The position numbers and the translations under genes were made by a program. Of a stretch of DNA of 28,578 nucleotides, positions 4,066 through 24,530 are shown piece after piece; within the stretch, counting starts at the first letter, position 1, and every line of letters starts with the position of its first letter. The stretch comes from a virus, in IMG/VR virus record IMGVR_UViG_3300020478_000045, positions 1 through 28,578 of that record; one strand, given 5' to 3'. The notes beneath the pieces are model-generated. The model did not search any database and was not told the DNA's origin. It saw only the letters and a program-made list of their open reading frames with translations.

Positions 4066-5145
4066 TTAAAGTTTTCCTTTCACACCTTTAACAAAATATT
4101 GCATAGTATCTAATTCCGGTCTTTTAATAACACCGGCAGGAACTTTAGTACCATCACGTTTTGTAACACCTAAACTAAATGGATAAAAATCATCCAAATC
4201 ATCATCTAACCAAGAAGTCTTAACTGTTTCAACGTGATTGACAACTTTGCCAGGAACATTCGCTCCCCACGGTGACAGAGCAACGCAATTTTGCTTGAGT
4301 CCCAAATTAAGTCTGCGATTTGGTTTCCAAGTACCATCAGCAACTTCATTTACAAGTCTCTGATACAGTCCAGACCAATGAAACATCATCCCTGTAATAT
4401 ATCTGTCAGGACCATTGCTTCCCATAGGAGCATCGTTACCCATACTCCACACTTCTGAACCATCACGTTCCCACACTTGTTGAGCAAGCGTTACTACACT
4501 CGGTGAATCGGTTGTAGTAAAAAGAACATCGTTTCCAGCATCAAGAAGTGCTTTAGCGGCATCCATATCTTTCGGTGGATTAAACCAAGAATTAATCCAT
4601 ATAACTTGAACTTCTACATCTGGATTTACGCTTTGGGCTCCTATAGTCAGAGCATTAATATTACGAACAATTTCAGGTATTGGATGTGAACCAACTACAC
4701 CAATTTTATTCTTTTTGGTCATCATACCCGCGGCAATACCACTCAAATAACGGGCTTGATAACTCATACAACCATAATTATCAAAGTTGGTATCATTACC
4801 TTTATAACCGGTGGCGTGCATAAAAATTGTATCGGGATGCTTCTTCGCCGCTTTTGCCATTCCATCCATATATCCGAATGAAGTTGCAAATACAATATCG
4901 TTCTTTCTTGCGAGTTTACTCAACAATTTCGCCGCTTCAGCTTCTGGAGCCATTTCTATTCCAGTAACTGAATGACCGTATTTTGTCAATGATTGGAAAC
5001 CTTGTTCGTGTCTCATCGACCAACCACCATCATTTTTGGGTCCTACTAAAAGATACCCAACTTTAACATTTTCTCTACTAATTAACGTGATACTGGTAAC
5101 TGCTAGGATTACTAGTCCTAACGTTAACGCTATCAATTTTTTCAT
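4066..5145 (-). CDS. BMP-family ABC transporter substrate-binding protein
   Basis: The 359-residue product begins with a Lys-Lys signal sequence (MKKLIALTLGLVILAV...), then KVGYLLVGPKNDGGWS, the start of the periplasmic binding fold of the BMP/Med/PnrA family (PF02608), whose known members bind purine nucleosides or related ligands for ABC importers. Family-like segments follow: 'DGGWSMRHEQGF', 'DIVFATSFGYMD', 'RYLSGIAAGMMTKKNKIGVVG' and 'VLFTTTDSPSVV'. No cysteine lipobox is visible; the first helix could be cleaved or act as an anchor. No permease or ATPase gene is nearby, so the protein would have to work with host transporter parts, as cyanophage PstS is thought to. It is a likely auxiliary metabolic gene for ligand uptake during infection. 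Confidence 0.88.
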   Translation of the reverse strand: MKKLIALTLGLVILAVTSITLISRENVKVGYLLVGPKNDGGWSMRHEQGFQSLTKYGHSVTGIEMAPEAEAAKLLSKLARKNDIVFATSFGYMDGMAKAAKKHPDTIFMHATGYKGNDTNFDNYGCMSYQARYLSGIAAGMMTKKNKIGVVGSHPIPEIVRNINALTIGAQSVNPDVEVQVIWINSWFNPPKDMDAAKALLDAGNDVLFTTTDSPSVVTLAQQVWERDGSEVWSMGNDAPMGSNGPDRYITGMMFHWSGLYQRLVNEVADGTWKPNRRLNLGLKQNCVALSPWGANVPGKVVNHVETVKTSWLDDDLDDFYPFSLGVTKRDGTKVPAGVIKRPELDTMQYFVKGVKGKL

Positions 5146-14632: not shown

Positions 14633-15073
14633 CTAAGACGAAACGATCTTAATGGTTTTCGGCTTATCTTCTTCGGGGATGACAATGTCCATATTAATAG
14701 TCAATACACCATCCTCTAATTTAGCATCCTTAATTTGGATGTTATCACCTATTGTGAATTGACTCAAGAAACTGCGGTTCGCAATTCCTTTATGAACAAA
14801 GGACTGGTCAGAATCATTCTCAGGTTCGGCTTTTTCGCCAGTAACCTTTAGAATGTTCTTCTCTAGTTCGACTTTGATTTCCGACTCTTTCCAGCCAGCT
14901 AAAGCAAACTCCAATACATACTTATCATCCGATTTGATGATATTATGTGGTGGATACTTTGCAGGTGGTTGTCTATCAAATTGCTGTAAAGCGTGGAAGA
15001 TGTTATCCAGTCCGAATGACTGATGTAACCATGGAGTGAAAAACTCCTGTGCGGTAGATAATTGCCTAGTCAT
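14633..15073 (-). CDS. Small heat-shock protein Hsp20
   Basis: The 146-residue protein has an alpha-crystallin domain: 'PPHNIIKSDDKYVLEFALAG', 'IKVELEKNILKVTGEK', 'FVHKGIANRSFLSQFTIGD' and 'AKLEDGVLTINMDIVIPEED'. The layout is that of IbpA-type chaperones, which hold unfolding proteins for refolding. Hsp20 genes are widespread in marine T4-like phages, where they may help folding of virion proteins. ATAAGGAG gives a strong ribosome site. The tmRNA coding piece lies just upstream on the same strand, and a TATAAATA sequence at 15284-15291 could be its late promoter. Confidence 0.95.
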   Translation of the reverse strand: MTRQLSTAQEFFTPWLHQSFGLDNIFHALQQFDRQPPAKYPPHNIIKSDDKYVLEFALAGWKESEIKVELEKNILKVTGEKAEPENDSDQSFVHKGIANRSFLSQFTIGDNIQIKDAKLEDGVLTINMDIVIPEEDKPKTIKIVSS

Positions 15074-15220
15074 AATTTCTCCTTATAAATTAAGCAAGAT
15101 TAAAATTGAGTCCTCACTATGAGAGACTCCTCTAATTTCGATGACCCTAAAGGCATCAACGAAAAACGTGGGGGCTTTTTTGATGATAAGGTAAGCCCCG
15201 TGGGAAATCCTCAGTCTTGC

Positions 15221-15274
15221 CTATGCGGCAAGAGCAACTCCGCGGTTAGCGGAAATGTAATCAGCATTGTTTGC
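15221..15274 (-). other. tmRNA proteolysis-tag reading frame
   Basis: Resume codon GCA at 15274 and stop TAG at 15221 give a 17-residue tag, ANNADYISANRGVALAA. The start Ala-Asn-Asn and the end Ala-Leu-Ala-Ala are typical of SsrA tags recognised by ClpXP or related proteases. The preceding AAACGTAACTGCAAAC resembles resume-site context in other two-piece tmRNAs. Confidence 0.88.
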
Positions 15275-15283
15275 AGTTACGTT

Positions 15284-15291
15284 TATTTATA
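15284..15291 (-). promoter_or_regulatory. TATAAATA inside the tmRNA coding piece
   Basis: An exact TATAAATA lies ten bases before the tag start on the minus strand. It could act as a late promoter for Hsp20, or simply be part of the tmRNA single-stranded region before the resume codon. The second explanation is sufficient. Confidence 0.35.
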
Positions 15292-15369
15292 CAAAGTTTT
15301 ACAACTTTTGCATCCTAGGTTGAGCGATTATAAGATTCAATTACCCAATCGAGTTCTATTTCGCCCCCA

Positions 15370-15531
15370 TCAATAAGATTCTACACGTTCTTTCTCTAAT
15401 TGTTTGAGCAATCGCAAGGGATGTCTCCCTTTGATATTGCCCATCCATCGAATCTGAGTACACAATGTACATTTTGGATTTCGTTTCCTCCATCCTGCTC
15501 GTCCACGTTTACCGACTCGTTTCTTCTTCAT
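15370..15531 (-). CDS. 53-residue basic protein inside the tmRNA intervening segment
   Basis: The ORF begins at ATG 15531, 14 bases after the CCA of the acceptor piece, and its TGA ends one base before the first G of the coding piece. It fills nearly the whole segment removed when the two tmRNA pieces are matured. The product starts MKKKRVGKRGRAGWRKRNPK, then CTLC, 'QIRWMGNIKGRHPLRLLKQL' and EKERVESY. It is very basic with one CxxC pair, resembling small nucleic-acid-binding proteins of marine T4-like phages. The ribosome site is weak (AAGAAG). Translation and tmRNA processing would compete for the same precursor. Confidence 0.75.
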   Translation of the reverse strand: MKKKRVGKRGRAGWRKRNPKCTLCTQIRWMGNIKGRHPLRLLKQLEKERVESY

Positions 15532-15544
15532 AGTAAAATCTTCT

Positions 15545-15613
15545 TGGTGGAGGCGGAGGGAATCGCACCCTCGTCTTGAATATCTCCACTTATAACTTTA
15601 CGCCGTTATTCTT
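15545..15613 (-). ncRNA. ssrA: Permuted tmRNA, acceptor piece
   Basis: The minus-strand RNA ends GACGAGGGTGCGATTCCCTC then CGCCTCC-A-CCA. This is a T-arm (GAGGG/CCCTC), acceptor strand, discriminator A and encoded CCA, the usual tmRNA 3' end. TTATAAG (15595-15589) and ATTC (15581-15578) pair with the coding piece. The T-loop is TGCGATT instead of TTCGATT, so position 55 is G. The 5' end is approximate and lies just after the stop of the gene at 15617. Confidence 0.88.
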
Positions 15614-22196: not shown

Positions 22197-22772
22197 TTAT
22201 TGGAAAGGTGGTCCTAAGAACCACGTTACTAGTGAATATCTAGTTCCTTTTGTTACAGGCAAAACTCTATGCTCCATATCAGAAGGAAACACAATTACTG
22301 TTCCTTGTTTATTATACTCTGGTGTAATGATCTCACATTGCTCTTTAGCATATGTAGCAAATTGAAAATCTCCACCCTCATAATCATCATTCAGGAGAAT
22401 AGTCATCGATAATTTTCTAACTCTACCTCCTATAATGGAATTATTTCCTTTATATTTTGAAGGGTGATCTCCCCTTCCGTCCCTGTGCCAATTAAAATAA
22501 TCTCCCGGTTGATAACGGGTTATTTGTATATCTTCTGCGGCTTCAATAGCATATCTCCATCCAGCACATTCATTAGCCGTCTTCATAAAGGTAAATACAT
22601 AATCCATTAACCACTGGTCTTTAACCCACGCTACGCTACTATTTCTAATATCAGGCTGGAGGGATTTTGTTTCTGCATCCATCCACTTGCCCTCACCCGC
22701 CATTCGGATTTTATCACAAGTTTTCTGATCAATAGCTTGAATAAAATAATACCATCGATTGATATTATACAC
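22197..22772 (-). CDS. 2OG-Fe(II) oxygenase (prolyl-4-hydroxylase-like)
   Basis: The 191-residue protein shows 'ITRYQPGDYFNWHRDGRGDH' with His96 and Asp98, 'KLSMTILLNDDYEGGDFQF', and 'VFPSDMEHRVLPVTKGTRYS' with His168 and Arg178, ending LVTWFLGPPF. This is the complete ligand set of P4H/PiuC-like dioxygenases. Family members hydroxylate proteins or small molecules. The substrate here is unknown; the position beside glycosyltransferases makes a hydroxyl-then-glycosylation pathway conceivable. It overlaps the upstream gene by eight bases. Confidence 0.92.
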   Translation of the reverse strand: MYNINRWYYFIQAIDQKTCDKIRMAGEGKWMDAETKSLQPDIRNSSVAWVKDQWLMDYVFTFMKTANECAGWRYAIEAAEDIQITRYQPGDYFNWHRDGRGDHPSKYKGNNSIIGGRVRKLSMTILLNDDYEGGDFQFATYAKEQCEIITPEYNKQGTVIVFPSDMEHRVLPVTKGTRYSLVTWFLGPPFQ

Positions 22773-23694
22773 GATTACCCTTCTTGTCAGTATTCGTCAG
22801 GACAAGCCCATAATTATTATCGCCTTTAGGAATCGGCTGTAACCCTTTCTTGAATTTCAGCTTGTTCTTCTTAAATGGACCATAATCGCAATAGTGGTGC
22901 CATCTCCTATATTTCCATACGATTCTGCATACATCTGGGTGCATATCCACCAGCATTTGACTCTTCTTAATCGTACCTTCAGCATTCCATCCAGTCTCTT
23001 GGAATTCTTCATTATCTGTAGCTTGTACGTGGTAGAATTCTTCCGTATTACCACCCTTTACAGTCTGATTCGCACATTTACCTTGAAGGAAATGATTGAA
23101 TTGAATTGTACAATCTCCGTCTTTGAGTATTCTTAGTGATAGGTCTGTATCTTCATTATATCGACCTCTCCATCGATGTCTTCCAGAATTCTTGATCAAA
23201 TTACAAGAGTATACTCGTGTATTTTTGACATATGGAGGATATTTCTGATTGGGTGCTATAAAGAATCGATACTGTGGTCCAGCCATCTGCACATTCTCAT
23301 ATCTATCGCAAAAATCTTCGCAAGACCGAAACAAAGCTCCGTTCTCTACTCTGTATCTGAAATTTTCGTGGAGTCTATAGAAGTCGGCAATGTTATCATC
23401 CATCACCCAATGCCACTCTGCTCCTAGAACATCTTTTGAGTGATCCCAACACCAATTTCTAGCACGACCCGGACCGTCACCATGGTTAGAAAAAGGGAGT
23501 AAAAGAAGTTTAGCATACGGCCGAAGTTTAAATTTATCAAGGGCTTTTTCATAAGGCTCTTCGTCCTGGGGTTCAATTGAAATATAGTGGTGAATCTTCA
23601 TCCGAGATAAACTCTTAGAAGTAATCATACTGTCAGCCCGTCCTTTGGATGCTATATACAAAGGATATTTGGGGTAATGTTTATTTACATCCAT
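22765..23694 (-). CDS. GT-A-type glycosyltransferase of the TAGT/GREB1 kind
   Basis: The 309-residue protein has 'YPLYIASKGRADSMITSKSL', 'HYISIEPQDEEPYEKA', 'GPGRARNWCWDHS', 'WHWVMDDNIADFYRL' with the DD metal-binding pair of GT-A enzymes, 'AGPQYRFFIAPN', 'WRGRYNEDTDLSLRILK' and 'KKSQMLVDMHPDVCRIVWKY'. These match TET/JBP-associated glycosyltransferases (related to GREB1), described in phages as DNA-base glycosylation candidates. The gene overlaps a second glycosyltransferase-like gene by ten bases and the oxygenase by eight. DNA base glycosylation is the leading hypothesis; surface glycan synthesis is the alternative. Confidence 0.78.
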   Translation of the reverse strand: MDVNKHYPKYPLYIASKGRADSMITSKSLSRMKIHHYISIEPQDEEPYEKALDKFKLRPYAKLLLLPFSNHGDGPGRARNWCWDHSKDVLGAEWHWVMDDNIADFYRLHENFRYRVENGALFRSCEDFCDRYENVQMAGPQYRFFIAPNQKYPPYVKNTRVYSCNLIKNSGRHRWRGRYNEDTDLSLRILKDGDCTIQFNHFLQGKCANQTVKGGNTEEFYHVQATDNEEFQETGWNAEGTIKKSQMLVDMHPDVCRIVWKYRRWHHYCDYGPFKKNKLKFKKGLQPIPKGDNNYGLVLTNTDKKGNRV

Positions 23695-24530
23695 TCGCTT
23701 AATGAAGTTGCCTGGGAAGGCTTATAAACCTTTTTCCAGTATTTAGTGTTTTTACGTTTACCATCTTTTTCGTAAATTTTAATCCCTTCTGGGAACTTAT
23801 GTTGTATATAGGCGAGGGCACCATAATGCTCGTCCGTCTGAAAATGATCCTTCGGTTGAACCTTGTGCATATCCGTCCATATAACTCTTGTACTCTGCAT
23901 ATCTTTTTTCAGCGATCCATTCGCATACATCCATTCTGTAGACTGCCGAGTATTGATTCCTCTTGATAGACATTCATAGATAAACAGGACATCTTCTGCT
24001 ACTCTGATAGCGGTAATATCCATATCATCCAGGTGCTGATTCAGCATTCTTCCATCAATAAAAATCATTCCAAAAACACCTTTAGTATCTACATATTCTT
24101 TGTCGGCTGGTGGAGCTTCTCCTGTGGATAAGCCCACAATTCCGATATCTTCTTCGTCTAGCCAGTCGCTAAACTTATCAAATGCAAGTAATATTTCTGC
24201 AGGAGTTGCTTCTCTCCTGCTGGTATTCATATTAGATTTGTCTGTCCAATACTTAGAGTTTCTCCTCAGTATAGTTAGGTCATCATCAGATACACAATAT
24301 TTGGTTGGACCAGCGTGTTCGTGAATAAAATGTCTCGTTCTAGCCAGCTGGTACCAATCTCCTACGATATCTTCTGGGAGTTCTAGATATTCACAATCAT
24401 AGTTATAGAGGTGGCGTTCACCAGGCTCTACGACCATAACTACTTTTTCTTGTAATGTTTTGGGAAGACTCTCAAATGTTATTTGATTGTCGGCTCTTCG
24501 TATTGTAGGAATATAGATACGGTCAATCAT
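23685..24530 (-). CDS. Second GT-A-like glycosyltransferase
   Basis: The 281-residue protein starts 'IDRIYIPTIRRADNQITFES', then 'VVMVVEPGERHLYNY' and 'YCVSDDDLTILRRNS' with an acidic D-rich motif like that of GT-A enzymes, 'DIGIVGLSTGEAPP', 'GVFGMIFIDGRML', 'AIRVAEDVLFIYECLSRGI' and a Lys-rich C-terminus. The opening phrase and DDD motif parallel the adjacent TAGT-like protein, so both may be distant relatives. It probably acts in the same pathway. The donor and acceptor are unknown. Confidence 0.7.
   Translation of the reverse strand: MIDRIYIPTIRRADNQITFESLPKTLQEKVVMVVEPGERHLYNYDCEYLELPEDIVGDWYQLARTRHFIHEHAGPTKYCVSDDDLTILRRNSKYWTDKSNMNTSRREATPAEILLAFDKFSDWLDEEDIGIVGLSTGEAPPADKEYVDTKGVFGMIFIDGRMLNQHLDDMDITAIRVAEDVLFIYECLSRGINTRQSTEWMYANGSLKKDMQSTRVIWTDMHKVQPKDHFQTDEHYGALAYIQHKFPEGIKIYEKDGKRKNTKYWKKVYKPSQATSLSEWM

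Follow-up and report, generated by a model that had tools for sequence, protein, structure and literature searches.

We found that a T4-like phage carries, on the minus strand, a circularly permuted, probably alpha-type two-piece gene for tmRNA, the RNA that rescues stalled bacterial ribosomes, and that the intervening sequence (IVS) between its two pieces contains a small protein gene, here called F1. The gene lies in the window, by which we mean the whole 28,578-nt stretch that was analyzed (IMG/VR virus record IMGVR_UViG_3300020478_000045). We consider it likely that F1 took over the IVS, so that a single locus specifies a protein as well as a tmRNA, and that the transcript serves as an mRNA and then as a tmRNA precursor. 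The anatomy of the tmRNA, the conservation of F1, its free-standing homologues, the recurrence of the arrangement with unrelated genes, and a terminal helix over the start region were all observed; the order and the exclusivity of the two uses of the transcript are inferred. The first-pass annotation, which had proposed a permuted phage tmRNA here, read the anatomy correctly but overlooked the F1 gene within the 176-nt IVS; a tmRNA-only interpretation is incomplete because the IVS is a protein gene.

A window-wide covariance-model search returned a minus-strand match to RF04321 (tmRNA_permuted) at 15604-15221 (E-value 3.9e-16). The score of 89.1 bits against a gathering cut-off of 47 bears out the permuted tmRNA, which the lack of a significant score would have refuted. 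ARAGORN likewise called a permuted tmRNA at 15637-15130 on the minus strand. With RF01849 (alpha_tmRNA), the window scored 42 bits, below that model's own cut-off of 50, and the relatives L003-L005, L007 and L009 scored 50.6-53.7. As expected of an RF04321 member, the acceptor piece is encoded upstream of the coding piece, and the two are joined by the acceptor stem and helix 2, as judged from the precursor fold and from pair lists for four distinct relatives. The acceptor piece (15545-15604, minus strand) comprises the helix-2 strands, the T arm, the acceptor 3' strand and an encoded CCA; its boundary at 15604 is the limit of the RF04321 match, and the true 5' end possibly lies slightly further upstream. 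The T loop is uninterrupted in the window's sequence, and there is no group I intron in it.

The 3' strand of the acceptor stem, CGCCTCC (15549-15555), is followed by A73 (15548) and CCA (15547-15545), and pairs with GGGGGCG (15368-15362; G1 is 15368). Read directly from the sequence, this stem contains a single G-T pair, as had been noted, and that pair is G3.U70. G3.U70 is the alanine identity pair; it is present in all four distinct relatives, and the window encodes an ACCA end. The coding piece (15130-15368, minus strand), delimited by ARAGORN and RF04321 with its 3' end at the ARAGORN boundary, holds the acceptor 5' strand, a helix 2 strand, the tag frame, the stop hairpin and downstream helices. 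The tag frame (15221-15274, minus strand) runs from the resume codon GCA (15274-15272) to the stop codon TAG (15223-15221), as read from the sequence, ARAGORN and the RF04321 alignment. It specifies the 17-residue tag ANNADYISANRGVALAA, as the earlier reading had it, and ends in a degradation signal (..LAA, stop), as expected for tmRNA_permuted; ARAGORN placed the tag start two codons too early relative to GCA. Also as described before, the stop codon sits in a helix loop: two of its three bases are in the loop of a 7-bp hairpin, TCTTGCC-GCATA-GGCAAGA (15215-15233, minus strand). Between the CCA end at 15545 and G1 at 15368 lies the 176-nt IVS (15369-15544, minus strand), which is not part of the mature tmRNA.

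In the minimum free energy (MFE) fold of the 302-nt precursor, the acceptor stem, the T arm and helix 2 all formed together across the IVS. Helix 2 matched its earlier description, TTATAAG of the acceptor piece (15589-15595) pairing with CTTATAA of the coding piece, and gained a second block, TTGAAT/ATTCAA, with ATTCAA at 15576-15581; the coding-piece strand is TTGAATCTTATAA (15328-15340; all on the minus strand, from the fold and its pair list). Homologous loci lacking these cross-piece helices would have spoken against the tmRNA, but both helices were kept, with altered sequence, in three further distinct relatives. At base pair 6 of the acceptor stem, the window has C-G and L003 has T-A. 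Helix 2 reads TTGAATCTTATAA/TTATAAG+ATTCAA in the window versus GAATTGGG..GACTTA/TAAGTT..TCCAATTT in L003; the helices of L003 and L007 differ from that of the window yet still pair, and a G-C to A-T change separates these two loci. In L006, helix 2 can be paired by eye, one of its blocks containing two wobbles, but the MFE fold of that locus favors another structure. Collectively, these data support a phage-encoded, circularly permuted, two-piece tmRNA, probably of the alpha type. We think it very likely that this tmRNA is functional; there are no RNA data, and charging, SmpB activity and assembly of the two pieces are inferred.

F1 (15370-15531, minus strand, stop codon TGA included) encodes 53 amino acids, MKKKRVGKRGRAGWRKRNPKCTLCTQIRWMGNIKGRHPLRLLKQLEKERVESY, and its 53 codons fill nearly the whole IVS: the frame starts 13 nt past the CCA, and its TGA ends 1 nt ahead of G1. 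When the IVS was subjected to dinucleotide shuffling, an ORF of this length arose in at most 0.2% of shuffles. Homologues of F1 were found at 32 loci among viral contigs. The gene is nested in a permuted tmRNA (RF04321, 78-89 bits) in eight contigs that represent four distinct sequence types counting the window's own, to which L002 is near-identical; the others are L003-L005, L006, and L007-L009. At the remaining loci examined, F1 is an ordinary free-standing gene without a CCA motif or tmRNA 3' end nearby. Residues W14, W29, C21 and C24 and several R, K and G positions are invariant in the family. Nested F1 showed dN/dS values of 0.06-0.28 and a pooled pN/pS of 0.19 over four nested copies, ratios that demonstrate purifying selection as far as sequence comparison can. 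The homologues, the dN/dS values and the shuffle result together exclude a chance origin of the frame and, in the absence of protein data, leave us in little doubt that F1 is a real nested gene.

What F1 does is less clear. It had no Pfam or PHROG match at E-values up to 1 and no PDB match, and its AlphaFold model was of low confidence (pLDDT 63.5) and too weak to read; assignment to a known protein family was therefore rejected. Because the protein is very basic and has one CxxC motif, nucleic-acid binding can be offered as a guess. As to whether F1 was captured once or several times, its protein tree separated the four nested copies from the rest by one branch (89/82) but was poorly resolved. 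We also observed that the F1-bearing tmRNAs of L003/L264 (IMGVR_UViG_3300010155_002050) and L007 have another body and other tags (..SASYALAA and ..SASYAIAA), and that their neighboring genes differ from those of the window and L006, though F1 is the same gene.

Next, we surveyed the IVSs of phage tmRNAs in general. Viral contigs were scanned with three patterns, and only matches with 7/7 acceptor pairing and a TCGA element were kept; this yielded 110 distinct IVSs, 91 of them 100-210 nt long. A downstream tag ending in AA was present in 75 of these 91, and all 20 sampled long-IVS loci scored above the RF04321 cut-off, several being beta-type tmRNAs. An ATG-ORF longer than those in 95% of dinucleotide shuffles occurred in 46 of the 91 long IVSs (~5 expected), and about half lacked a significant ORF; median ORF coverage was 71% on the sense strand versus 11% antisense. 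Since related phages recur and the 91 IVSs are not independent, the argument from recurrence rests on the number of gene families and not on the count of 46. At least five small-gene families besides F1, mutually unrelated, occupy the same slot: F2, a 38-aa membrane peptide (..ADITLLSGIIYLVFF); F3, a 41-aa membrane peptide (..YWVYxLVTYDWS..); F4, of 50-57 aa (..NWDKDLWD); F5, of 50 aa; and F6, membrane peptides of 29-30 aa. IVS ORF families beyond these exist too. The nested copies of F2-F5 had pN/pS values of 0.25-0.45, below 1.

Like F1, F3 and F4 were found both nested and free-standing. At the TGA of the tmRNA leader, nested F1 ends in ..ERVESY and nested F3 in ..DFF, whereas the free copies have different C-termini (..EKHERD, ..DDDFLKPYD). 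The simplest reading of these sequences is insertion of free genes into the IVS, with the tmRNA leader reshaping their ends. The stops of F4 and F5 lie 12-16 nt earlier than the F1-type stop. Two nested F3 genes (L314:5281-5403 and L322:3512-3634) are identical at 40 of 41 residues, yet the tags of their tmRNAs differ (ANDAQFALAA and ANDAFFGEVRLAA), a combination that suggests exchange between IVS and coding piece. At L151, L165 and L315, the IVS ORF continues beyond G1 into the coding piece so that protein and tmRNA sequences overlap; the run-on ORF of L151 and L165 reads ..SKEYLEFExKHLKELE..CIFDGDD. Long IVSs at L254:1732, L263 (57 aa) and L256 (74 aa) have open frames outside the assigned families and are possible further cargo genes. 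Overall, the best explanation for these sequence patterns is that the IVS of phage tmRNAs recurrently serves small phage genes as a cargo slot.

Upon inspection of the predicted folds, the two ends of the window's IVS pair in a 10-13-bp helix that is continuous with the acceptor stem and covers the F1 start site. Its trailer strand is AAGATTTTAC (15533-15542) and its leader strand GTAGAATCTT (15375-15384; both on the minus strand, from the fold and pair list). With G15543, the trailer strand forms a Shine-Dalgarno (SD)-like AGAAGA, a weak one, just upstream of the F1 start codon; the leader strand encodes residues V-E-S-Y of F1 and is followed by a conserved TTGAT, which contains the F1 stop, before G1. 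Across the long phage IVSs, a helix running on from the acceptor stem joins the first ~13 nt to the last ~13, with a mean dG of -10.8 kcal/mol and 12.0 pairs, compared with -3.1 kcal/mol (sd 0.26) and 6.5 pairs when 3' ends were swapped between IVSs. Compatible pair changes occur among the F1-bearing genes (AAGATT/AATCTT in the window vs AAGACT/AGTCTT in L007). In every tested member of F1, F3, F4 and F5, the SD-like site and start codon lie within the 5' strand of this helix. The mean pairing probability of the start region was 0.73-1.00 for the full precursor; it was 0.28-0.85 when the transcript ended ahead of the leader and 0.68-0.99 when the IVS was folded as an excised piece. The leader TTGAT is, however, conserved even in IVSs without an ORF, so the position of the F1 stop is partly a by-product of a processing motif, and a stop 1 nt before G1 is weakened as proof that ORF and tmRNA are coupled.

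Bacterial genes and isolated phages provided a contrast. In a sample of one class, the alphaproteobacteria, 131 of 142 genomes had RF04321 matches above the cut-off, nearly all spanning ~180-270 nt versus 384 nt in the window. Eighteen of 20 alphaproteobacterial IVSs could be parsed (14 of 10-56 nt and four of 105-232 nt), and none of the 18 had an IVS-filling ORF. The same DNA pattern with an IVS of 148-178 nt gave only 12 matches in 84,980 species; the parsable ones included two real tmRNAs, neither with an IVS-filling ATG-ORF or a terminal helix. Four isolated alphaproteobacterial phages had IVSs of 70-97 nt and no IVS-filling ORF, and F1-F4 had no tblastn match in 50,697 phage records. Because the pattern is strict, these counts are comparisons and not censuses; beta-type and cyanobacterial hosts were outside the survey.

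The T4-like label given to the phage agrees with its gene content: the window encodes gp32 (PF08804, 139 bits) and a protein weakly matching Gp23, along with NrdA, NrdB, ThyX, an endolysin, TET-associated glycosyltransferases and seven tRNAs, a set consistent with a T4-like myovirus. The minus-strand order is nrdA-nrdB-...-DUF6445/2OG oxygenase-70-aa ORF-tmRNA-hsp20, and L006 (the contig of L270) keeps the arrangement of nrdA, nrdB, 70-aa ORF, tmRNA and hsp20. The hsp20 chaperone gene (14633-15116, minus strand) directly follows the tmRNA, as it does in L006. An RNA thermometer before hsp20 was rejected, since ROSE_3 scored only 23.5 bits (cut-off 43) and the fold was no better than those of shuffles. 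Elsewhere, the window encodes a PnrA/Bmp-type ABC-transporter substrate-binding protein (4066-5145, minus strand; PF02608, 126 bits), an unusual auxiliary gene for a phage, and a 2OG-Fe(II) oxygenase beside two TET-associated glycosyltransferases (22197-24530, minus strand), which suggests hypermodified cytosine in the phage DNA.

A permuted tmRNA in a phage is not in itself new, and we rejected this as a claim of novelty: the Methylophilales phage Melnitz carries a two-piece tmRNA, and 53 have been predicted in phages with sequenced genomes, 50 of which are aquatic (PMC9004378); in the tmRNA database, 79 entries are from phages (PMC11915505). Melnitz and other marine phages resemble the window in that a T4-like myophage encodes a circularly permuted tmRNA, of the alpha type as that of the window probably is, but the Melnitz report describes a glutamine riboswitch with the tmRNA and no IVS protein gene (PMC9004378). 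The alphaproteobacterial tmRNAs of RF01849/RF04321 share with the window the gene order, acceptor stem, T arm, encoded CCA, tag design and a discarded IVS; the IVSs inspected are mostly short and have no filling ORF, whereas that of the window is 176 nt and protein-coding. A protein gene in a removed segment is also known from tmRNAs with a group I intron and LAGLIDADG homing endonuclease, but there a self-splicing intron lies in the T loop of a one-piece gene, unlike the processing spacer of a permuted gene (PMC11915505). The F1 locus could be ruled out as such an intron given the uninterrupted T loop and the lack of a Pfam match. Functional IVS cargo has a precedent in a permuted tmRNA whose IVS holds a tRNA-Ala gene (GCA-2688965), but this is an RNA gene in one nominally archaeal genome, as opposed to recurring protein genes in phages (PMC11915505). 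Recorded cargo in removable tmRNA segments comprises homing endonucleases in group I introns and, in permuted IVSs, a single tRNA-Ala and a single repeat (PMC11915505). We found no report of protein genes in a permuted tmRNA IVS in the open-access literature; subscription papers were outside the search. A conserved small protein gene between the tmRNA pieces, with unrelated genes in other phage tmRNAs, appears to be new.

We propose that a single transcript would carry the acceptor piece, F1 and the coding piece. In the nascent RNA, the SD and start codon would be fairly open, and F1 could be translated as far as its TGA next to G1. After synthesis of the leader strand and the coding piece, the acceptor stem, helix 2 and the IVS helix would close and hide the start site. 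RNase P would cut 5' of G1, 3'-end nucleases would mature the CCA end, and the two-piece tmRNA would be released, the IVS being lost as a closed hairpin. F1 output would be confined to an early interval on each transcript, and this order would allow the gene to be stored in tolerated space at little cost. With its phage tag, the released tmRNA probably adds to host trans-translation or takes its place, a view for which there are no experimental data. Mutual exclusion of translation and processing is predicted without RNA or protein data, and we advance it tentatively, at somewhat less than even confidence. The reasoning is that the start site, and in F1 and F3 also the stop, are written in strands of the helix that closes the tmRNA. 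Still more tentative is the generalization that phages repeatedly build dual-function RNAs, in which a transcript is either a small-protein mRNA or a two-piece tmRNA precursor, ribosomes on the one hand and folding plus RNase P on the other being mutually exclusive.

The main rival to exclusivity, to which we give close to an even chance, is that the IVS is merely tolerated space and that translation and tmRNA maturation are independent: small genes would settle in a segment that is thrown away in any case, given how compact phage genomes are. The use of the slot by many unrelated families fits this, as does the variation of stop position between families. Since the terminal helix occurs whether or not the IVS has an ORF, processing may be its sole purpose, and any gene that starts at it would have a covered start. 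Independence is harder to reconcile with a start region inside the terminal helix in every tested F1, F3, F4 and F5 member, and with F1 and F3 taking their C-terminal codons and stop from the tmRNA leader, such that a terminating ribosome must cover the acceptor strand. An alternative in which the excised IVS is itself the F1 mRNA, translated after cleavage, could draw on the SD-like site, start and stop all lying within the excised segment; we regard it as improbable, with the start region still paired there and, for F1 and F3, only 1 nt left beyond the stop codon.

The remaining alternatives deny one half of the locus. If the protein gene were functional and the tmRNA-like RNA a decaying or inhibitory remnant without trans-translation, or a decoy for host factors, the modest RF04321 scores of two distinct F1-bearing tmRNAs (78-83 bits) would be accounted for, and a tmRNA fragment of phage DS6A has been reported to inhibit endogenous tmRNA (PMC11915505). 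Yet the tag frame is intact, as are the resume codon, G3.U70, the CCA and the two cross-piece helices, the helices are kept despite changed sequence, and most related long-IVS tmRNAs have intact tags ending in AA; this too seems improbable, if marginally less so than translation of the excised IVS. A plain permuted phage tmRNA with a chance ORF in its IVS would need nothing beyond what is known of phage tmRNAs (PMC9004378) and would explain why F1 matches no known protein family, but we find it scarcely credible: it is already contradicted by the conservation pattern, with free-standing F1 homologues, dN/dS values of 0.06-0.28, a length reached in at most 0.2% of shuffles, and recurrence in unrelated families.

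tmRNA is among the best-studied bacterial RNAs, and the IVS of its permuted genes is regarded as a discarded spacer. The reuse of the phage IVS by unrelated conserved proteins means that a class of phage proteins has probably been missed, because they overlap an annotated RNA gene. If one transcript is first an mRNA and then a tmRNA precursor, as we infer, ribosomes and RNase P have to use it one after the other, which would make competition between translation and tRNA-type processing directly testable, and phage tmRNAs may travel as two-function modules.
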